Assembly: GCA_020850535.1 (NCBI GenBank)
Contig: JADZEM010000013.1
Location: 62,001-126,000 of the forward strand
Length of the DNA stretch: 64,000 nt
Reading direction: 5' to 3'
Source: Chloroflexota bacterium
GTDB lineage: Bacteria; Chloroflexota; UBA6077; JACCZL01
Shown: in pieces, positions 4,363-33,155 of the stretch
Layout of the letters: each line of letters opens with the position of its first letter
Numbering within the stretch: position 1 is the first letter of the stretch
The notes under the pieces: model-generated
What the model was told of the DNA's origin: nothing
Databases searched by the model: none
What the model saw: only the letters and a program-made list of their open reading frames with translations
Made by a program: the position numbers and the translations under genes

Positions 4363-4785
4363 AGTGAGGACGGCTTCCGGCGCCTGGATCGTGGCTATCG
4401 GGTCGGCGTGGCGATGCACGAGCTTCCACGCGCCGTCCTCGCGGCGGTAGATGTGCGTCACGCGGAGCACCATCGGCGCAGCGCCAGTGCGACCCGTCAG
4501 CGATGGCCGCGAACGCTCGAAGTGGGCCGTGTAGGCCAGGTCGCCGCTGGTGAACCGCCCGATCTCCTCGAACTCGATCTGACCACCGGCAAATCGGGCG
4601 GAGGCCCACTCGTAGCGCGGCTCCAGCTCGTCCCAGCCACGCTCGTAGCCGCCCCACCCGCCGAAGAGCGTTGCATCAGGCTCGTGCGAGCACAATGAAT
4701 TCCAGGTGGCGACGTCGCCGTTGAGGAAGCCGACCGTCGCCGCCTGCATCCGCGTGATCGCCGCCTGGAGATCGTCGTCCGCCAT
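4351..4785 (-). CDS. SnoaL/DUF4440-like (NTF2-fold) protein
   Basis: 144 residues from MADDDLQAAITRMQAATVGF. This start fits better than the longer open frame to 4914, whose extra residues are Arg/Pro-rich and unlike the family, and GGGAG lies just upstream. Features of the NTF2-like fold are a helical start, a WNSLCSHEPDATLFGGWGG segment, and paired strands ending VTHIYRREDGAWKLVHRHAD, the usual DUF4440 signature (.R..DG.W.I.H.H.S). Members are polyketide cyclase-like enzymes, ketosteroid isomerase-like enzymes, or simple ligand binders; the exact role is unknown. Its 3' end overlaps the fossil toxin by 12 bases. Confidence 0.8.
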   Translation of the reverse strand: MADDDLQAAITRMQAATVGFLNGDVATWNSLCSHEPDATLFGGWGGYERGWDELEPRYEWASARFAGGQIEFEEIGRFTSGDLAYTAHFERSRPSLTGRTGAAPMVLRVTHIYRREDGAWKLVHRHADPIATIQAPEAVLTSNR

Positions 4786-4947
4786 GCTCCCACCCCCGGA
4801 ACGGTACTCTCCCTGTACAGTGCAGGAGAGGCGTTCTGCTCGGGCAAATATGCTGCGAGCGGGTGTCGCTCGGTTGGGTGGACCGTGGCGCTGACAGCCC
4901 GTCCACGCTCTCATGCTTCCGTTCTCACCAGCAGCAAGGACTGCCCC

Positions 4948-5190
4948 ATGTGCCGCGGCATCAAGCAGCTTCGACGCCCGGACGCGCCAGCCACCGACGA
5001 GGAGCTGCGCGCCGCTGCCCTCCAGTTCGTGCGCAAGATCAGCGGCCTCCGGCAGCCTTCAAAGGCCAATCAGACGGCGTTTGAGGCGGCCGTCGAGGAG
5101 ATCACCGCCGCGTCTGAGCGGCTGCTGCAGTCGCTGGGCGGGCGCGGCACGGCGCAGCAGCCTGCATCGGGGCACTTGTCGGCGTCGTGA
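4948..5190 (+). CDS. DUF2277 family protein
   Basis: 80 residues from MCRGIKQLRRPDAPATDEEL. The opening MCR.IK.L..P.P.AT.EE and the AALQFVRKISGLRQPSKAN core are diagnostic of DUF2277, a small helical family common in high-G+C bacteria with no established function. The ATG at 4948 is preferred over the upstream in-frame ATG (4885) because family similarity begins exactly here and AAGGA lies just upstream. After the conserved core comes a short Gly/Ser tail. Confidence 0.85.
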   Translation: MCRGIKQLRRPDAPATDEELRAAALQFVRKISGLRQPSKANQTAFEAAVEEITAASERLLQSLGGRGTAQQPASGHLSAS

Positions 5191-5276
5191 AGCGGCCGTC
5201 TGGACGGTGAACGCCCTCAGATGCACGCTGCTCTGCCCATTGTGCAGGCTTCTGGGAATCTGACACGCTCCAGGAG

Positions 5277-5305
5277 TTGACGCGCGGCCCGCTGACGGCT
5301 AGGCT
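5277..5305 (+). promoter_or_regulatory. Candidate housekeeping promoter for the 5435 binding-protein gene
   Basis: TTGACG (5277-5282), a 17-base spacer, then TAGGCT (5300-5305). The position, about 130 bases before the gene, is sensible. The -10 is imperfect. Confidence 0.4.
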
Positions 5306-5434
5306 TACGACGCTTGCAGGCGCGATCCTGTGAGCGATGTACGTCACCGGCGACGAGACCACGCCGCCGCCTCTCCCCCCAGCGGTTGAGAGGCGGCCGA
5401 GCGCGTCGCTCCGTAGTGAAAGGGAGCAAAATCG

Positions 5435-7213
5435 ATGCAGCGCAGCAGATTGACCCGTCGGGAGGCGCTCGGTAAGGGCCTGCGGCTCCTGGCCGTCGCC
5501 GGACCGTCCGTGCTGCTGGCCAGCGCCTGCGCCCAGCAGCCTGCCGCCCCGGCCAAGCCGGCTGAGAGCAAGCCAGCGGAGTCGAAGCCCGCCGAGACCA
5601 AGCCGGCCGCTCCGGCCGCCGCCGCGCCCACAGCCGCCCCGGCCAAGCCGGCTGAGGCCGCGAAGCCCGCCGAGGCGGCCAAGCCGGCTGCCGCCGCCAA
5701 GCCAGACGCCGCGATCCCGGCGATGGCGGCCTCCGGCGAGATGCCGAAGCGTGGCGGCACCCTGCGGGCCGTCGTTCAGAACGACTTCGTGACGATGTGG
5801 CCGATGATTACCACCGGCCCGACGGCGTCCGTCTGCTACGACTGGCTGATCCGGTGGCGGAAGGGGCCGGATGGCCGCTGGGGCCCACAGCCCGGCCTTG
5901 CCGAGTCCTGGGAGCTGACGGACACCTCGGCCACCTTCAAGATCCGCAAGGGCGTCAAGTTCCACGATGGCACCGACGTCAACGCCGATGCCATCGCCTG
6001 GAACGTCAATACCTGGATGACGCACCCGAAGTCCCTGGCCAAGTCGCAGCTCGGGGCCGTTGCCAAGGAGAAGTCGGCGGAGATCGTCGACGATTACACC
6101 GTCAAGATCAACCTCGCGGCGCCGGCTGGCTCGCTGTTGGCCGTCCTCTCCGATGCCCAGCGCGAGACCGGCATCGTCTCGAAGGCCGCTCACGCCAAGC
6201 TTGGCGACGACGGGCTGGCGCTCCAGGCTGTCGGGAGTGGGCCGTTCATCTTCGAGCAGTGGCAGAGCGGCTCGCAGTTCATCGTCAACAAGAACCCCAA
6301 CTACTGGGAGAAGGGGCTGGACGGCCAGCCGCTGCCGTACCTCGACAAGATTCACTACCGCTTCGTCCCTGACGACTCGGTTCGCTTCGTCGAGATGCGT
6401 TCCGGCAGCGCGGACATCGGCCAGTTGTTCCGCGGGCGCGACGTCCCGACGGCCAAGGCCGAGTCGGGGCTGAACTACTGGGAGGACGCGCAGCAGGGCC
6501 GCCTCTACCGCTTCTTCTTCAACGCCCAAAAGGCGCCCTTCAAGGACAACCTCAAGCTGCGCCAGGCGATCCAGTACGCCATCGACCGCGAGGCGATGGC
6601 GAAGGCCGTCGGCGGCGGCGTCGGCAGCGCCAACAAGTACGACCTGACCGAGGGTACCCTCGGCTACGATCCCTCAGTTCCCTTCTACAGCTTCGATCTG
6701 GCGAAGGCCCAGGCCCTGATGAAGGAGTCTGGGGTCTCGACGCCGCTCAACGTCCGGCTGACGGTCATCTCCCGCGAGACCGACCAGCAGCAGGCCCAGA
6801 TGATCCAGCAGATGCTCGACAAGATCGGCATCAAGGTCGAGATCGAGGCGCTGGAGCGCGTGGCCTGGGGCCAGAAGGTCCGCCAGTCCAACGACTTCGA
6901 GATGGCGACCCAGCAGACCAGCACGCCGCTGGATCCGGACGTCATCTCGCTGGCCTGGGCGCCAGACGGCCCGGCCGCCTACGTCCGCCCGAGCGAGCCG
7001 GCCATTCAGGACTGCCTGAAGGAGGCGCGGACCTCCTACGACGTCGGCAAGCGGCAGGCGACGTACGTGAAGTGCCAGACCCAGATGTTCGATACGGCGT
7101 GGTGGGGCCACATGTGGATCCAGCCGTACAACTACATCACCAGCAAGAAGGTGAAGCTCTCCAGCCCGTTCTTCCAGGAAGACTGGCGCGAGTGGAGTAT
7201 CTGGCTCGCCTAG
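5435..7213 (+). CDS. ABC transporter substrate-binding lipoprotein, family 5 (peptide/opine/nickel type)
   Basis: 592 residues, with AAGGGAG before the ATG. The N-terminus has a twin-arginine-like start (RLTRREALG), a hydrophobic stretch and a lipobox (LLASAC, Cys32), so it should be exported, possibly by Tat, and lipid-anchored. Residues 33 to about 95 are a flexible linker of PAKPAE / AAKPAE units. From about residue 100 the SBP_bac_5 fold follows: RGGTLR, GLAESWELTD, FKIRKGVKFHDGT, GSGPFIFEQWQ, and LRQAIQYAIDREAMAKA. This is the extracellular ligand-capture part of an oligopeptide-type importer. No permease genes are adjacent on this strand; a CaiB-type CoA-transferase follows after 143 bases, which suggests the ligand may be an acid that is activated as a CoA thioester. 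Confidence 0.93.
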   Translation: MQRSRLTRREALGKGLRLLAVAGPSVLLASACAQQPAAPAKPAESKPAESKPAETKPAAPAAAAPTAAPAKPAEAAKPAEAAKPAAAAKPDAAIPAMAASGEMPKRGGTLRAVVQNDFVTMWPMITTGPTASVCYDWLIRWRKGPDGRWGPQPGLAESWELTDTSATFKIRKGVKFHDGTDVNADAIAWNVNTWMTHPKSLAKSQLGAVAKEKSAEIVDDYTVKINLAAPAGSLLAVLSDAQRETGIVSKAAHAKLGDDGLALQAVGSGPFIFEQWQSGSQFIVNKNPNYWEKGLDGQPLPYLDKIHYRFVPDDSVRFVEMRSGSADIGQLFRGRDVPTAKAESGLNYWEDAQQGRLYRFFFNAQKAPFKDNLKLRQAIQYAIDREAMAKAVGGGVGSANKYDLTEGTLGYDPSVPFYSFDLAKAQALMKESGVSTPLNVRLTVISRETDQQQAQMIQQMLDKIGIKVEIEALERVAWGQKVRQSNDFEMATQQTSTPLDPDVISLAWAPDGPAAYVRPSEPAIQDCLKEARTSYDVGKRQATYVKCQTQMFDTAWWGHMWIQPYNYITSKKVKLSSPFFQEDWREWSIWLA

Positions 7214-27109: not shown

Positions 27110-28111
27110 ATGCAGAAACTGCTCAACGATCCCGCCAATTTCGTCGACGAGATGCTTGAAGGCATCCTGTTGGCCCACCCCGACCGGCTGCGCGCGGTCG
27201 AGGGCGAGCCGCGCGCCATCGTGCGGGCCGATGCGCCCCGGGCCGGGAAGGTCGGGATCGCCACGGGCGGCGGGTCCGGCCACCTGCCAGTCTTCCTGGG
27301 GTACGTCGGGCGTGGGCTGGCGGATGGCTGCGCGGTCGGGAACGTCTTCGCATCGCCCAACGCCGACCAGATGCTGACGGTCACCAAGGCGATTGACGGC
27401 GGCGCTGGCGTGCTGTACCTGTACGGCAACTACGGCGGTGACGTGATGAACTTCGACTTCGCGGCCGAGATGGCCGCCGCCGAGGGCATCACCGTCGAGA
27501 CGGTCCTGGGCGCGGATGACGTGGCCTCAGCGCCCCCCGAGCGAGCCAACACCCGACGCGGCATCGCCGGCATCTTCTTCGGCTACAAGGTGGCCGGCGC
27601 CGCCGCCGAGGCCGGCGCGGACCTCGCCACCGTCAAGGCGACCGTCGAGAAGGCGTTCTCGCGCACCCGCTCGATGGGCGTGGCCCTCGCGCCCTGTACC
27701 CTGCCGACGGTCGGCCATCCGAACTTCGAGGTGCCAGCCGGCCAGATGGAGATCGGCATGGGCATCCACGGCGAGCCCGGCGTCTCCCGCGAGGCCATCC
27801 GCCCGGCCGACGAGGTCACGGACGTCCTGCTGGACCGCATCTTCGCGGACTTGCAGCCGACCAGGGGCAGCGACGTGGCCCTGCTGGTGAACGGGCTCGG
27901 CGCGACGCCGAAGGAGGAGCTGTACATCGTCTACCGGCGCATCCATGCCCGGCTGGCCGAGCGCGGCCACCGCGTGCACCGGCTGTACATCGGCGAGTAC
28001 GTCACCTCGCTGGAGATGGCCGGGGCCTCGATCTCGATGCTGGAGCTGGACGACGAGCTGGCCCGGCTGATCGACGCCCCCGCCGATTCGCCGTTCTTCC
28101 TGCAAGCGTAA
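27110..28111 (+). CDS. dhaK: PTS-dependent dihydroxyacetone kinase, substrate-binding subunit DhaK
   Basis: 333 residues with GGGAG before the ATG. Residues 50-60 (IATGGGSGHLP) hold the conserved GGGSGH. Later IGMGIHGEPGVSRE carries the His that forms a covalent hemiaminal with dihydroxyacetone, and the mid-region YGNYGGDVMNFDFAAEMA is typical. DhaK binds dihydroxyacetone, and DhaL-bound ADP, recharged by DhaM, phosphorylates it to DHAP. DhaL follows 183 bases downstream, after a hairpin repeat at 28124-28191. DhaM and an HPr protein are on the opposite strand about 1 kb further on. Confidence 0.95.
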   Translation: MQKLLNDPANFVDEMLEGILLAHPDRLRAVEGEPRAIVRADAPRAGKVGIATGGGSGHLPVFLGYVGRGLADGCAVGNVFASPNADQMLTVTKAIDGGAGVLYLYGNYGGDVMNFDFAAEMAAAEGITVETVLGADDVASAPPERANTRRGIAGIFFGYKVAGAAAEAGADLATVKATVEKAFSRTRSMGVALAPCTLPTVGHPNFEVPAGQMEIGMGIHGEPGVSREAIRPADEVTDVLLDRIFADLQPTRGSDVALLVNGLGATPKEELYIVYRRIHARLAERGHRVHRLYIGEYVTSLEMAGASISMLELDDELARLIDAPADSPFFLQA

Positions 28112-28123
28112 GGCCCGTCACGC

Positions 28124-28191
28124 CGTAGCGCGGGAGCTTGTCCCCCGCCCGTTTCCTGACCGAACAGGCGGGGGCAAGCCCCCGTGCTACG
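28124..28191. repeat. Inverted repeat between dhaK and dhaL
   Basis: Arms CGTAGCGCGGGAGCTTGTCC... (28124-28149) and GGCGGGGGCAAGCCCCCGTG... (28167-28191) are imperfect reverse complements around a 17-base loop. It may cap the dhaK mRNA or balance dhaK and dhaL expression. I saw only this copy. Confidence 0.6.
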
Positions 28192-28294
28192 GTCCGACCG
28201 CCTGAGACAGCCTCTTGGCGGGCCGTGCGACTCGTCAGTCCGTGGCGCAGGCACGGCACTGATGAGTCGCCTGCCGCCTCCTGGAGCATCACCC

Positions 28295-28924
28295 ATGAGC
28301 GACGACGTTCTGACCTTCGACGGGCTACGGGCGGCGTTGGGCCGCGTAGCCGACCGACTCGAAGCCGCCCGCGACGACCTCTGCGCCCTCGACGCCATCG
28401 CTGGGGACGGCGACCTCGGCGTCACGATGGCGACGGGGTTCGGCGCGATCCGCCCGCTGATCGAGAATCCGCCAGCCGAGGATGCCGGCCAGTTGCTCTC
28501 GCAGGTGGCGATGCAGATCGGCAAGGTCGCGCCCTCGACGATGGGCACGCTGACGGCCACCGCCCTGCTGCGGGCCGGCACGAAGGCGCGCGGCAAGACC
28601 GACCTGACGGCCGCCGACCTTGCCGAGATGCTGGAAGCCGCCGCCCAGGGTATGAAGGATCGTGGCAAGGCGGATGTCGGGCAGCGGACGGCCATCGACG
28701 TGCTGGTGCCGGCAGCGGCAGCGGCCCGCGAGGCGGCCGGGGCCGGCGAGTCGGCCGCCGTGGCGCTCACGAAGGCGGCAGCGGCCGGCGAAGAGGGCGC
28801 GGCAGCCACGGCCAACATGGAGCCGGTCCTCGGGCGCGCGGGCTGGATCGCGGACCGTGCCCGTGGCAACCGCGACGCCGGCGCAACGGCCTGGGCCACG
28901 ATCCTGAGCGCGCTGGCCGGCTGA
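28295..28924 (+). CDS. dhaL: Dihydroxyacetone kinase ADP-binding subunit DhaL
   Basis: 209 residues from MSDDVLTFDGLRAALGRVAD; the longer open frame is rejected because similarity starts here and GGAG is upstream. The Mg-ADP-binding motif reads LDAIAGDGDLGVTM; the three Asp ligands are kept, but the His of the usual GDGDHG is Leu. The helical barrel motifs follow: VAPSTMGTLTATALLRAG, DVGQRTAIDVLVPAAA and LGRAGWIADRARGNRDAGA. DhaL holds a permanently bound ADP that is rephosphorylated by DhaM. It ends 6 bases before a 215-bp palindromic element. Confidence 0.92.
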   Translation: MSDDVLTFDGLRAALGRVADRLEAARDDLCALDAIAGDGDLGVTMATGFGAIRPLIENPPAEDAGQLLSQVAMQIGKVAPSTMGTLTATALLRAGTKARGKTDLTAADLAEMLEAAAQGMKDRGKADVGQRTAIDVLVPAAAAAREAAGAGESAAVALTKAAAAGEEGAAATANMEPVLGRAGWIADRARGNRDAGATAWATILSALAG

Positions 28925-28930
28925 CCCGGC

Positions 28931-29145
28931 AGGGCGATTGCACGTTGAGCTTGCCGTGCAGCGTCGTCGGGGCTTGAAAGCCCCCCCTACCATCCTGCAG
29001 TCGCTGCGCGACGCTACCGTCTCGCCCGTCGACGGTGTTCCCGGCGTCCGTCGCGCAGCGACGGCATGACTGTAGGCGGGGGTTTCAACCCCCGACTGCG
29101 CGTTTCACGACGGTATGGGAACACCGACGAACATGCAATCGCCCT
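28931..29145. mobile_element. MITE-like element E, copy 1 (terminal repeats AGGGCGATTGCA)
   Basis: The ends AGGGCGATTGCACGTT (28931) and AACATGCAATCGCCCT (29145) are inverted repeats differing at one of 16 bases. The 215-bp interior is a large palindrome: GGGGCTTGAAAGCCCC near the left, CCCCCGAC near the right, and GTCGCTGCGCGACG / CGTCGCGCAGCGAC in the middle. There is no coding content. The sister copy at 31483-31699 has the same ends and nearly the same length. Confidence 0.75.
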
Positions 29146-29199
29146 GGCTGACCCGGCTCCACCGCCGCGCGGTTTCTCTGGTCATGCTGTTGAACCTGT

Positions 29200-29247
29200 C
29201 CCCCCATGAACTCCTTGAGAGAGGGGGGCTGGGGGTGAGGGGGAGTA
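29200..29247. repeat. Fragment of the CTCACCCCC-type G/C-rich repeat
   Basis: CCCCCCATGAACTCCTTGAG ... AGAGGGGGGCTGGGGGTGAG resembles one arm of the perfect inverted repeat at 23402-23556. It lies between element E and the HPr gene. Confidence 0.5.
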
Positions 29248-29267
29248 CGTCGGGGTGATGCCTCAGG

Positions 29268-29555
29268 CTACTCCCGGAGGCCGGCGATCACCCCCGCCAG
29301 CGCCGCCACCGATTCGGCGGCGGCCGGGCCGCTGGCACTCAGCGTCAACGTCGTCCCGCCCGTCGCGCCGAGGGTCAGCACGGCCAGAATGCTCTTTGCG
29401 TTGGCCTGCTTGCCGTTCGCCGCGATGGTCACCGGGGCGGCCAGCGCGGCGGCCGCCCGCACGACCTCTGCCGCCGGCCGGGCGTGCAGCGCCACGTCGG
29501 CCGGCAGCACGACCGTCTGCGTCACCACCGCGCCATCATCAGAGCTTGCGGGCAT
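29268..29555 (-). CDS. ptsH: HPr family phosphocarrier protein
   Basis: 95 residues. VVLPADVALHARPAAEVVRAA holds the phospho-accepting His (residue 24 here; His15 in classical HPr, shifted by an N-terminal extension of 9). GKQANAKSILAVLTLGAT contains the Ser position used by HPr kinase in Firmicutes. The tail TLTLSASGPAAAESVAAL is normal. HPr passes phosphate from enzyme I to DhaM. It overlaps the end of dhaM by 17 bases, so the two are co-translated. Enzyme I is not in the window. Confidence 0.92.
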   Translation of the reverse strand: MPASSDDGAVVTQTVVLPADVALHARPAAEVVRAAAALAAPVTIAANGKQANAKSILAVLTLGATGGTTLTLSASGPAAAESVAALAGVIAGLRE

Positions 29556-29967
29556 CGCGCGCCTCCTTTGCCGCCTGCGCTACCTCGGGTAGGCTCGCGC
29601 CGATGGAGGCCAGCACCCCCGCCGCCACGGCCCCTTCGACCAGCGGCCCATCGACTACCGCCAGCCGAGCCAGCTCCGCTGCCGACAGCTCCTCTTGCGC
29701 CGCCTTGACGGCCAGCACCGAGCTGCCGAGATCCATCAGTACCACTGCGCCGGCCCCCTGGGCAGCTTGCTGGAGCGTCTCCAGCACCCGCTCGCCGTCC
29801 GAGCCGAGGCTGCCGTCCACCGCCCCGCCCACGGCGTAGATCGTGACAGATGGGCCGGCCATCTGCCCGACCAATGCTGCCAGCCCCTCGACGAGGGCGG
29901 CGCTGTGCGACACCAGCACCAGGCTGACGGTGGCCGAAGTGGCAGCGGCGGTAGATTCGTGTGGCAT
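29539..29967 (-). CDS. dhaM: Dihydroxyacetone kinase phosphotransferase subunit DhaM (EIIA-Man domain only)
   Basis: 142 residues. The start of the fold, VSLVLVSHSAALVEGLAALV, contains the active-site His. GAVVLMDLGSSVLAVKAAQEEL and VVDGPLVEGAVAAGVLASIG complete the mannose-type IIA domain. In Escherichia coli DhaM is a 470-residue fusion of IIA, HPr and truncated enzyme I; here IIA stands alone with a separate HPr gene next to it, as in many Gram-positives. It rephosphorylates ADP bound to DhaL. It is convergent with the dhaKL pair, which is unusual because the four genes are normally collinear. Confidence 0.92.
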   Translation of the reverse strand: MPHESTAAATSATVSLVLVSHSAALVEGLAALVGQMAGPSVTIYAVGGAVDGSLGSDGERVLETLQQAAQGAGAVVLMDLGSSVLAVKAAQEELSAAELARLAVVDGPLVEGAVAAGVLASIGASLPEVAQAAKEARDARKL

Positions 29968-30008
29968 GGGGCGGATTCTACCCTGCCACGCCGACGGCAG
30001 CGGACACC

Positions 30009-31298
30009 CTACAGGTCTGGCAACCGGCCATCGGGCACCGCGTAGTCGATCTCCGGCCGCGTGCCGTCTGGGCTCGCCGTCTCATCAGGGGCCTTGCGGC
30101 CGTACAGGACTGTCAGGACCGGCGGCACGACGAGCGTCGTCAGCAGGCTCATGATGACGACCGTCGAGAACACGACATCGGGGATCGCGCCAATCGACTG
30201 CCCGACGTTCGCGACGATCAGCCCGACCTCGCCGCGCGGGGCCATCCCGACCCCGATGATCGCCATCGACCGCGTGCCCTTGCCCAGGCCGCCCAGCCCG
30301 CAGCCGAGTACCTTCCCGACGATCGCCAGGACCGTCACCGTGAGGGCCAGCCCCAGCACGCTGGCGTCGAGAAACAGCCGCCAGTCCACCCTGCTGCCGG
30401 TGATGACGAAGAACAACGGCACGAACAGCTCGTAGATCGGCAGGGCGCGGTGCTCCAGCTCGTACTGCTCGCGGACCTCGGCCAGCACCATGCCGGCCAG
30501 GAACGCGCCGATGATGGCGGCCAGCCCGATGCTCGCCGAGAGCGCGGCCAGCCCGAGCATCATCAGCACGGCCACGACGAACGGCGCGTTCCGAACCGGC
30601 AGCCGGTCCAGGTGGATGCTCCAACGGCGGATCGCCTGGCGGCCGGCCAGTGCGACGAACGCCGTGAACGCCAGAGCCTGGGACGCGATGATGGCGATGC
30701 TCACCAGCGACACCGTGCCCGTCTGCCCGATGGCCGAGACGACGGCCAGCACGATCATCGCCAGGATGTCGTCGATGACGGCCGCCCCGAGGATGATCCG
30801 GGCCTCGTCGGACTGGATCTGCCCCAGGTCCGCCAGCACCCGCGCCGTGATCCCGACGCTCGTCGCCACCATCGCCGTCGCCACGAACAGCGCTTCGACC
30901 GTCGGGTGTCCGAGCAACGCCACGTACGCATACCCGAGGACGAACGGCAGCACCACCCCGCCCACAGCCACGCCGCCCGCTCGCCCGCCGACCTTCAGGA
31001 TGTCCGACAGGCGCGTCTCCAGCCCGACCAGGAACAGCAGCACCACCACGCCCAGCTCGGCCAGCACGTCGTAGATCAGGCTGAGCGCCTCGTGAGCAGC
31101 GGCTTCGTCGTGCATGGCGTGGATCAGGTCGGTGGAGGGTGTCCCGATCCACCCGAGCGCATATGGCCCCAGCACGACGCCCGCCAGCAGCTCGCCGATG
31201 ACGGCCGGCTGGCCCAGGCGCTCGAACAGTGCGCCGATCGCCTTGGCAGCCAGGAACATCAGGAAGAGATCGGCAAGGACAGCGGCGGCAACGTGCAT
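30009..31298 (-). CDS. Cation:proton antiporter (CPA2/KefB-like)
   Basis: 429 residues from MHVAAAVLADLFLMFLAAKA. The longer frame is rejected because the start at 31298 has GGGAGG 7 bases upstream and the helices begin there. About 12 hydrophobic helices; GELLAGVVLGPYALGWIG, LRLSDILKVGG-like linkers, VATSVGITARVLADLGQ, and DDILAMIVLAVVSA (the paired Asp of the ion-binding helix) are typical. GMAPRGEVGLIVANVG near the end is the family motif. Such proteins exchange Na+ or K+ for H+. No regulatory TrkA domain follows. The long 5' leader looks like an attenuator, so expression is probably controlled by early termination. Confidence 0.92.
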   Translation of the reverse strand: MHVAAAVLADLFLMFLAAKAIGALFERLGQPAVIGELLAGVVLGPYALGWIGTPSTDLIHAMHDEAAAHEALSLIYDVLAELGVVVLLFLVGLETRLSDILKVGGRAGGVAVGGVVLPFVLGYAYVALLGHPTVEALFVATAMVATSVGITARVLADLGQIQSDEARIILGAAVIDDILAMIVLAVVSAIGQTGTVSLVSIAIIASQALAFTAFVALAGRQAIRRWSIHLDRLPVRNAPFVVAVLMMLGLAALSASIGLAAIIGAFLAGMVLAEVREQYELEHRALPIYELFVPLFFVITGSRVDWRLFLDASVLGLALTVTVLAIVGKVLGCGLGGLGKGTRSMAIIGVGMAPRGEVGLIVANVGQSIGAIPDVVFSTVVIMSLLTTLVVPPVLTVLYGRKAPDETASPDGTRPEIDYAVPDGRLPDL

Positions 31299-31358
31299 CG
31301 GCGGCCTCCCGTTGAGAGATGGCAGTCCAGGTCCGGACAGACGACAGCGCAGGGCAAC

Positions 31359-31440
31359 AAAAAAGAGACTGCTTGAGCAGTCTCCACCGAGCCGCGCTGG
31401 TACGGGGTACGCGGCCACCCCGAGACTCCCTGAGAGCCTC
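31359..31440 (-). promoter_or_regulatory. Attenuator or riboswitch-like leader of the antiporter gene
   Basis: Read on the minus strand, four segments can pair: 1 GAGGCTC (31440-31434), 2 GAGTCTC (31428-31422), 3 GAGACTGC (31384-31377), 4 GCAGTCTC (31372-31365), followed by six T. Segments 1:2 and 3:4 pair together (terminator formed); 2:3 is the exclusive alternative (AGTCTC with GAGACT, terminator broken). Between 2 and 3 lies a domain where GGGGT/ACCCC and GCCGCG/CGCGGC would cross as a pseudoknot. The pairings are direct reading; ligand and class are unknown. Confidence 0.65.
31365..31384 (-). terminator. Intrinsic terminator inside the antiporter leader
   Basis: An 8-bp perfect stem GAGACTGC / GCAGTCTC with a TCAA loop, followed at once by six T on the minus strand (31364-31359). 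It stands about 60 bases before the antiporter start, so it can only act conditionally. Confidence 0.8.
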
Positions 31441-31447
31441 CCCAACG

Positions 31448-31476
31448 AGTATAGCAGCAGGCGTCAGTCGTCAGCC
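31448..31476 (-). promoter_or_regulatory. Candidate promoter of the antiporter leader
   Basis: TATACT at 31453-31448 (minus strand) would start transcription near 31441, exactly at the first pairing segment of the leader. The -35 is weak (CTGACG/GCTGAC, spacer 15-16). Confidence 0.5.
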
Positions 31477-31482
31477 GTTATC

Positions 31483-31699
31483 AGGGCGATTGCATGTTCG
31501 TTGGAGTTCCCATAACGTGGTGAGACGCGCAGGCGGGGCGAAGCCCCCGCCTGCCTGCGCGCATGCCGTCGCTGCGCGACGGTAGCCGGGAACAGCGTCG
31601 ATCGGTGCGACTGGAGCGTCGCGCAGCGACTGCAGGATGGTAGGCGGGGCTTTCAAGCCCCGACCACCCTGCACGACGCGCTCAACATGCAATCGCCCT
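31483..31699. mobile_element. MITE-like element E, copy 2
   Basis: 217 bp with ends AGGGCGATTGCATGTT and AACATGCAATCGCCCT that are exact inverted repeats over 16 bases. The interior has GGCGGGGCGAAGCCCCCGCC, GTCGCTGCGCGACGGTAGCC, and on the right GTAGGCGGGGCTTTCAAGCC. Same length class and organisation as copy 1 (28931-29145). It borders the antiporter promoter. Confidence 0.78.
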
Positions 31700-31709
31700 G
31701 CAGTCGTCA

Positions 31710-31791
31710 TGCAATGGTGACCGACGGGCACCCCTCCTCTGTCATCCTGATGCAATGGTGACCGACGGGCCCCCCTCCTCTGTCATCCTGA
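31710..31791. repeat. 41-bp tandem duplication
   Basis: A unit beginning TGCAATGGTGACCGACGGGC and ending CTGTCATCCTGA is present twice in a row (31710-31750 and 31751-31791) with one base difference. It adjoins a GTCATCCTGA-type palindrome. Confidence 0.85.
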
Positions 31792-31885
31792 GTGAAGCGA
31801 GCCTGCGAGCGTAACGAAGGATCTCACCCGCTGACCGTCAACGCTCGCGTCAGCGGGTGAGGTCCTTCGCTGCGCTCAGGATGAC
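31782..31885. repeat. Palindromic interspersed repeat, GTCATCCTGA type (full copy)
   Basis: Outer arms GTCATCCTGA / TCAGGATGAC, inner arms AGGATCTCACCCGCTGAC / GTCAGCGGGTGAGGTCCT; 104 bases, one longer than the copy at 19183-19285, with the centre in inverse orientation. It lies downstream of the L,D-transpeptidase gene. Confidence 0.82.
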
Positions 31886-31958
31886 AATGGGGTGTTGCGT
31901 GCTTTCACCGACATACTCGTGCTGCTGACCGCCGTCCGCTGGCCGCTGGAAGCGCGCG

Positions 31959-33155
31959 CTACTCCTGGATCACCAGCGGCGTGCCGACCTCCGCCCACTC
32001 CCAGAACCAGAGCGAGTCGTCGTAGCTCATCCCGAGGCACCCGTGGCTGCCCGAGTATCCCCAGTTGCCCGACCAGTAGTTGTAGTGAATCGAAGAGCCG
32101 TCGTTGGTGAAGTACTGCGTGAACAGCACATCCTTCAGGTAGTAGCCGCCCGGCGCGTCCCGTGGGATGCCCAGCCCCTCAGAGCTCATGATCTCGTTCT
32201 GGACGCGCCGCAAGATGGTGAAGAACCCGGTCGGCGTCGCCCAGCTGGCGGTGCCCTTGAGCGACAGCGTCGAGTAGACCGGCTTGCCGTCCTCGTACGC
32301 CGTCACGATGCACGGGTCCGACAGCTCGGCCACGATCAGCTTGCCGGGGTGTGGCGGGAACGTGCTCGGCACACGCACCAGCGAGCCGTGGACGAACTGC
32401 TGCTGCCCGATGCGATACCACATGTCGCCATCGGAGCCTTTGACCTCGCCCAGGACCGTCACGCCCTCGTTGTGGCCGGCCTTCCCGACGATGTTGCCGT
32501 CCGTGACGCCCGGCGTGCTGCGGATGTTCGCGCCGCCGACGATGCGGGCCGGCATCGCCGTCTGGTTCTTCTGGGCCAGGTACCACTCTGGCGGATCGCC
32601 GCTCGGGCCGACATCCTTCGCGTTGACGTAGGCGATGCCATTCGTGAGCGGGTTGCGGACCCGGATCCGCGAGCCGTCCTGCGGGTTCAGCACGCGGAAG
32701 TAGCTGAAGGCTGGAGCCGTCCCAAAGCTGACCGCCCGGTCGTCAGGGCCAGACCACAGCTCGGTCGGCGTGTGATTCTGGACCCAGCCCAGGCCATCCT
32801 GCGCCACCGGCGGCGAGGCCGGCGACGACCCCGGCGGGGGCGGGGCCGCGGCTGGCGCACCGGTGGCGGGCGCGCCCGCCACCGGTGCGCCAGATGGGGA
32901 TGGCTGCGGGCTGGCGCCGGGGGTGGCTGTCGGGCTGAAGCGGTTGTTGCGCGTCGAGCCGCTGCCATTCCCGGAGCCGGTGCTGCGCGTAGGCGTCGCC
33001 GATGGCTCGGGCTCCGCCTCCGTCTCGCTGCTCGACTGTGCCAGCGCGACGCTGATGCTGCCCAACGAGACCAGCATCGCCGCCGGCGTAACTGCCAGCA
33101 GCCGCAGCGCGCCACGGCGCGAAAGCCGCCTGATTGATGATGAGCCGTCGAGCAT
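31959..33155 (-). CDS. Secreted L,D-transpeptidase (YkuD) with SH3-like region
   Basis: 398 residues. A twin-arginine signal (IRRLSRRGALRLLAVTPAA, then LGSISVALAQ) suggests Tat export. Residues 40-120 are a Ser/Pro/Thr/Gly-rich spacer. Next is an SH3-like region (VQNHTPTELWSG to IVGKAGHNEGVTVLGEV, with ANIRSTPGVTDG as the repeat motif). The C-terminal YkuD domain begins KLIVAELSDPCIVTAYEDGK and carries the catalytic SGSHGCLGMSY with the nucleophile Cys. It should cross-link or modify cell-wall peptides outside the membrane. The start shown is the ATG at 33155. The Trp-rich end (DSLWFWEWAEVGTPLVI) is normal for the family. Confidence 0.93.
   Translation of the reverse strand: MLDGSSSIRRLSRRGALRLLAVTPAAMLVSLGSISVALAQSSSETEAEPEPSATPTRSTGSGNGSGSTRNNRFSPTATPGASPQPSPSGAPVAGAPATGAPAAAPPPPGSSPASPPVAQDGLGWVQNHTPTELWSGPDDRAVSFGTAPAFSYFRVLNPQDGSRIRVRNPLTNGIAYVNAKDVGPSGDPPEWYLAQKNQTAMPARIVGGANIRSTPGVTDGNIVGKAGHNEGVTVLGEVKGSDGDMWYRIGQQQFVHGSLVRVPSTFPPHPGKLIVAELSDPCIVTAYEDGKPVYSTLSLKGTASWATPTGFFTILRRVQNEIMSSEGLGIPRDAPGGYYLKDVLFTQYFTNDGSSIHYNYWSGNWGYSGSHGCLGMSYDDSLWFWEWAEVGTPLVIQE

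Follow-up and report, generated by a model that had tools for sequence, protein, structure and literature searches.

The leader ahead of a CPA2-type cation/H+ antiporter gene (~31440-31359, minus strand, in the 64,000-nucleotide stretch of Chloroflexota DNA analysed here, hereafter the window) is, as judged from its aligned relatives, a real, conserved RNA motif with conservation far above chance, and it is almost certainly a regulatory RNA. On balance, we favour the reading that it represents a new cis-regulatory RNA class of Chloroflexota, which would control antiporter genes by premature termination of transcription and would most likely act as a Na+ ON switch.

Leader architecture in the window

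All leader pieces that a first-pass annotation of the window had named are present where it had placed them when the sequence is read directly (Table 1), including its -10 hexamer, which proved to be of the extended type. The motif is small (~65 nt including the terminator). Pairing of segments 3 and 4 followed by six T had been read as an intrinsic terminator, and this hairpin, with a folding energy of -13.8 kcal/mol, was the sole terminator-like site in a terminator scan of positions 29900-32200. Folding energy of the whole leader was unremarkable (z = -1.05, with a method blind to pseudoknots). The T tract is separated by 60 nt from the antiporter ATG, which agrees with the starts of orthologues, and the encoded protein is closest to the CPA2 subfamily, scoring 182 bits against TIGR00932 (CPA2), under the cut-off of 238. 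Two features of the surroundings were recorded: a 41-bp unit duplicated in tandem (97% match, 31709-31791) lies ~280 bp upstream of the leader, and 27110-29967 holds dihydroxyacetone kinase-type genes, DhaK-/DhaL-like ones on the plus strand and DhaM-/HPr-like ones on the minus strand, the latter directly behind the antiporter.

Table 1. Elements of the leader and the gene behind it, in window coordinates
Feature	Position	Strand	Remarks
Extended -10, TGC-TATACT	TATACT 31448..31453; TGC 31456-31454	-	without a good -35
P1, 5' hairpin GAGGCTC/GAGTCTC	31422..31440	-	segment 1 31440-31434; segment 2 31428-31422
P2, GGGGT/ACCCC	31404..31421	-	GGGGT 31421-31417; ACCCC 31408-31404; loop is the pseudoknot 5' strand
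Pseudoknot 5' strand GCCGCGT (P2 loop)	31409..31415	-	partner 31397-31391
GCCGCG/CGCGGC, as named in the first-pass annotation	31415-31410 with 31396-31391	-	
Linker J GTACCA	31398..31403	-	consensus G(U)UAYCN
Pseudoknot 3' strand GCGCGGC	31391..31397	-	
Invariant segment GGTGGAGACTGC	31377..31388	-	consensus GGNGGRGRCUG; overlaps terminator 5' arm
Segment 3 GAGACTGC	31384-31377	-	
Segment 4 GCAGTCTC	31372-31365	-	
Six T	31364-31359	-	directly after GCAGTCTC
Intrinsic terminator	31359..31385	-	stem 31385-31377/31372-31364; loop TCAA; T tract to 31359
CPA2-type cation/H+ antiporter, 429 aa	30009..31298	-	ATG 31298; PF00999, E=1.7e-62

Search for related leaders

The search started from the window antiporter; in DNA upstream of orthologous antiporters in related Chloroflexota, the layout was as in the window and the stem sequences were different. 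Covariance models (R1, and the refined R2 and R3) were built from P2 and the terminator stem only, with the pseudoknot left out; since all three include the terminator, copies acting on translation would escape them. Scans covered ~627 distinct genomes, with the model search carried out within Chloroflexota, mostly on metagenome-assembled genomes, and E-values were calculated per genome, most accepted copies lying far below 1e-3. This produced 44 accepted copies, spread over 38 Chloroflexota genomes and three classes: the window's own class has 11, that of G035 has 16 and that of G161 has 17. Of the 44, 36 were found by RNA search alone and 8 were first found via the antiporter. In the window's genome (7.65 Mb), the leader is present as a single copy.

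A divergent related copy (L007) was left out of the 44, L094 is not among the accepted copies, and the matches L058, L071, L072, L075, L076, L077 and L096 were removed as false, lying in coding sequence or lacking the core. No model match was present at orthologous antiporters of Armatimonadota, Thermoplasmatota, Acidobacteriota and Pseudomonadota (L037-L044 except L039). Two loci ~180 nt ahead of an antiporter (L025 in G067 and L026 in G059) are possible divergent members without an R2 match, reading GGGTCATGCCC ... CCATGGTGGAGTC and then a terminator, with a possible CATG/CATG pseudoknot and an extra hairpin in the linker.

Conservation and covariation of the structure

P2 and a terminator-like hairpin were found in every one of the 44 copies, and in nearly all of them the P2 loop pairs with the strand just downstream, giving an H-type pseudoknot. 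In alignment A7 (43 rows), P2, pseudoknot and terminator taken jointly were paired in 92.8% of cells, as against 73.8% in shuffles and 44-54% when the same three helices were slid by 1-3 columns; the shuffles do not preserve relatedness, whereas the sliding control does and agrees with them. Two-sided compensatory changes were seen at all five pairs of P2 (91.9% of cells paired) and at all seven pairs of the pseudoknot, a helix absent from the search models. For the pseudoknot, 85.4% of cells were paired (56.6% in shuffles), both sides had changed in 76 cells (26 in shuffles), and the covariation score was 0.601 versus 0.168, with both-side cells and score reached by none of 500 shuffles; the covariation of P2 likewise went unreached in 500 shuffles. 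Matching every P2 loop to the downstream strand of the same sequence also beat all 20,000 random re-pairings (0/20000). The pseudoknot predicted in the first-pass annotation from GGGGT/ACCCC and GCCGCG/CGCGGC is thus borne out by covariation, and related leaders keep it together with P2 and the terminator. The terminator stem is kept in 99.4% of cells (43 copies), with weak U tracts in several copies (e.g. L055, L056, L100).

Upstream of this core, the pairing of segments 1 and 2 corresponds to P1, a hairpin directly 5' of P2 that exists in most copies, with L053, L051 and L056 as the few where it is weak or missing; it is ordinary, its sequence differing in each copy. In 25 of 43 copies, a -10-like element (TANNNT) stands 14-52 nt upstream of the motif, whereas Markov shuffles gave such an element in 4.2 copies on average and in 10 at most. 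A promoter-like element at this distance fits a transcript starting at the 5' hairpin.

The remaining element of the original proposal, an anti-terminator formed by segments 2 and 3, was not supported by the related leaders. Plain four-segment attenuation, in which 1:2 and 3:4 pair in one state and 2:3 in the other, has its segments in the window, where 2:3 could form 6 bp; across 24 copies, however, segments 2 and 3 of the same sequence paired by 4.79 bp on average and those of different sequences by 4.81 bp, and 64% of permutations did equally well, which is the chance level. With 1:2 an ordinary 5' hairpin, we consider this scheme very improbable. Attenuation through a leader peptide was also rejected, in agreement with the earlier reading that none is encoded, because P1, P2 and the pseudoknot change freely without keeping frame and no start codon is shared in A7.

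The invariant strand and regulated termination

The linker UUAYC and the segment GGNGGRGRCUG are near-invariant, the linker columns U, A and C carrying 1.69, 1.89 and 2.00 bits and most GGNGGRGRCUG positions lying near 2 bits (18.7 effective sequences). Over eight terminator stem positions, the 5' arm holds 13.1 bits versus 10.3 bits for the 3' arm, which drifts mostly by changes from C to U or from A to G, the result being a G-U pair. Since one arm is favoured, unlike in a plain terminator, it is probable that the 5' arm has some other partner or task and takes part in a second, competing fold. Near-invariant unpaired positions, together with a 5' arm that outconserves its partner, are the usual mark of an aptamer overlapping its expression platform. 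Here the invariant strand overlaps the terminator 5' arm, from which we infer that aptamer and terminator exclude each other. No Watson-Crick anti-terminator is visible, and a likelier competitor of the terminator is the core of the aptamer, which would need the GGNGGRGRCUG strand; pseudoknot and terminator could in principle coexist, and the switch would rest on use of the invariant strand by the aptamer.

These patterns make it highly probable that termination at the leader is regulated. A constitutive partial terminator or transcriptional insulator would account for the presence of a terminator in all copies, but would leave the covarying pseudoknot, the invariant UUAYC and GGNGGRGRCUG and the spectrum of downstream genes unexplained, and we give it hardly any weight. 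AGGUGGAG/AGGAGGAG looks SD-like, but the idea that it marks a concealed start of translation was discarded, there being no conserved start codon downstream and the commonest base at the variable position being U, not A.

Genes downstream of the motif

The first same-strand gene of each copy was read, with representatives run against Pfam and NCBIfam and the rest assigned by sequence resemblance. A Na+/H+-type antiporter lies directly downstream in 32 of 42 assessable copies; among the copies that the RNA search alone had found, the figure is 24 of 34 assessable ones. The antiporters come from five families without recent common ancestry, a much stronger link than the single cation/H+ antiporter to which the leader had been tied at the outset: CPA2 (12 copies), CPA1/NhaP (5 copies, TIGR00831), NhaD/CitMHS-like permease (8 copies, and a further 3 behind a CBS-domain gene), NhaA (2 copies, PF06965, one above the TIGR00773 cut-off) and MrpA (2 copies). 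The NhaD/CitMHS-like assignment is one of fold family, with a putative antiporter substrate. The other copies precede an NfeD-type membrane protease (3 copies; L068, L069, L073), HflK (1 copy), a 48-aa membrane protein (1 copy, L062), other or unclear genes (5 copies) or a contig end (2 copies). A link to sodium is not obvious for NfeD, HflK and a few more of the genes behind the motif, and the position of the motif ahead of NfeD-type genes hints at a role of NfeD in sodium or pH stress.

Several individual loci are of separate interest. At L090 and L099 (G612:C215:5001-6690), two leaders with their genes follow one another, the first ahead of an NhaD/CitMHS-like permease and the second ahead of NhaA. 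At L062 (G416:C41), the motif is followed by a 48-aa ORF encoding a single-span membrane protein with a weak DUF6480 match, and a separate terminator follows this ORF, with tRNA-Thr and EF-Tu beyond; the ORF product is possibly a sodium/pH-responsive small protein. The window's sister genome carries a second CPA2 antiporter (L079, G002:C86:88000-97500; ~4490-5660 and 5688-6710; 69% identical over residues 73-408) that is seemingly split by a transposase-like insertion, with motif copy L049 upstream and copy L055 behind the antiporter on the opposite strand; upstream of L049, the motif and an NfeD-like gene are divergently oriented.

Comparison with known regulatory RNAs

Using Rfam 15, no family matched the window leader or 20 relative loci, in keeping with the earlier failure to match a known consensus. 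Gathering and permissive thresholds gave chance matches only; one example, chrB-a in the permissive scan of the leader (E<=10), was on the wrong strand, at 17 bits versus a cut-off of 43.9. RF03071 (Na+-I) gave no match in the window, the leader (E<=10) or the 20 relative loci, and reached its cut-off in 0 of 201 Chloroflexota genomes. Li+-I and Li+-II (nhaA-I, nhaA-II) had no match in the leader or its relatives even at permissive E, and neither the c-di-AMP (ydaO) nor the Mn2+ (yybP-ykoY) class matched in the window, the leader or the 20 relative loci. The DUF1646/nhaA motif list (NAR 2017) was compared through Rfam only.

The leader has two of the properties by which riboswitches are recognised, a conserved, covarying 5'-leader structure and recurrence ahead of functionally linked genes (the 32 of 42 copies and five families above). 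preQ1 and SAM-II are small H-type pseudoknot riboswitches whose 3' part overlaps the expression platform, and the leader resembles them in being a small H-type pseudoknot with its 3' part overlapping a putative expression platform, but differs in conserved nucleotides, downstream genes and phylogeny, with no Rfam match. Na+-I (RF03071, the DUF1646 motif) also precedes antiporter genes, including those of kefB/napA-type CPA2, and also uses a transcription terminator as expression platform, its read-through being ligand-dependent (PMC9337991). In contrast, RF03071 consists of two extended stems, P1 and P2, and its conserved nucleotides cluster where P1 begins, at its base, and within the loop of P2 (PMC9337991), whereas the core of the leader is an H-type pseudoknot with UUAYC and GGNGGRGRCUG. 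Li+-I, Li+-II and the Na+-II variants likewise control nhaA and other cation transporter genes, and terminators are used by Na+-II variants, but Li+-I has a P1/P2 architecture like that of Na+-I and mostly acts on the ribosome-binding site (PMC9646797). The nqrA-II motif is similarly an orphan riboswitch candidate linked to sodium transport, but has four stem-loops and occurs in Pasteurellaceae only, ahead of nqrA; antiporters and Chloroflexota are not mentioned in the catalogue that describes it (PMC11109978). No description of the present motif was found in open full texts. On this comparison, the leader would be a new class of a known kind, a riboswitch-like terminator leader, outside any named family.

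Proposed mechanism and signal

At low signal, the invariant strand would pair with the terminator 3' arm and transcription would stop. At high signal, a ligand would bind the pseudoknot, and the linker and invariant strand would dock on it, so occupying the terminator 5' arm and allowing the antiporter to be transcribed. Such an ON switch by antitermination would be natural, because a gene exporting Na+ should be expressed at high ligand. Direct binding of a ligand by the RNA appears fairly likely, and direct ion sensing by the leader would fit the features described. Na+ would be the most likely signal since CPA1, CPA2, NhaA, NhaD-like and Mrp proteins share the substrates Na+ (or Li+) and H+; it is ranked first, and alkaline pH second, because validated Na+/Li+ riboswitches control similar genes and Na+-I stays under its cut-off in the 201 genomes. 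The assignment of Na+ as the ligand is nevertheless tentative, at somewhat less than an even chance, and sequence alone does not tell whether the signal is Na+, Li+, alkaline pH, a different ligand or a protein. Control by K+ or c-di-AMP is less likely, because no K+ uptake genes are among the downstream genes.

With the same RNA and terminator switch, the signal could be alkalinity (H+), the pseudoknot or linker shifting with pH and antitermination occurring at high pH. H+ is the sole ion that all the antiporters share, the genes for NhaA and Mrp are known from alkaline stress, and envelope-stress responses include NfeD/SPFH proteins; pH-responsive leaders are known as well, for example alx in E. 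coli (PMC9603457). The alignment, however, offers no sign of a protonation motif (a conserved C+.G-C triple, for example), and the validated RNA switches before such antiporters sense Na+ or Li+ (PMC9337991, PMC9646797); we regard alkalinity as the main rival to Na+, but as an unlikely signal. Recognition of the pseudoknot and the GGNGGAGAC strand by a trans-acting RNA-binding protein, which would prevent or enforce termination with no small ligand, seems improbable: a pseudoknot with an invariant single strand would suit a protein site, and the coupling to the terminator would be identical, but the downstream genes share no autoregulated protein gene and instead encode many unrelated membrane transporters, and the invariant positions are unpaired or at junctions, as in small aptamers.

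Implications

To our knowledge, few RNA classes sense monovalent cations. We see about an even chance that the motif is a new natural class of ion-sensing riboswitch, built on an H-type pseudoknot with a fold unrelated to Na+-I, Li+-I and Li+-II, which would co-regulate five antiporter families and some NfeD/HflK genes in Chloroflexota and sense Na+ or alkaline pH. The motif is a ready test object for the structural question of how small RNAs select Na+ or read pH. Within a single phylum that seemingly lacks Na+-I, it accompanies almost all kinds of bacterial Na+/H+ antiporter, and it could identify substrates of poorly annotated antiporters and reveal how NfeD and HflK genes of Chloroflexota are linked to sodium or pH.
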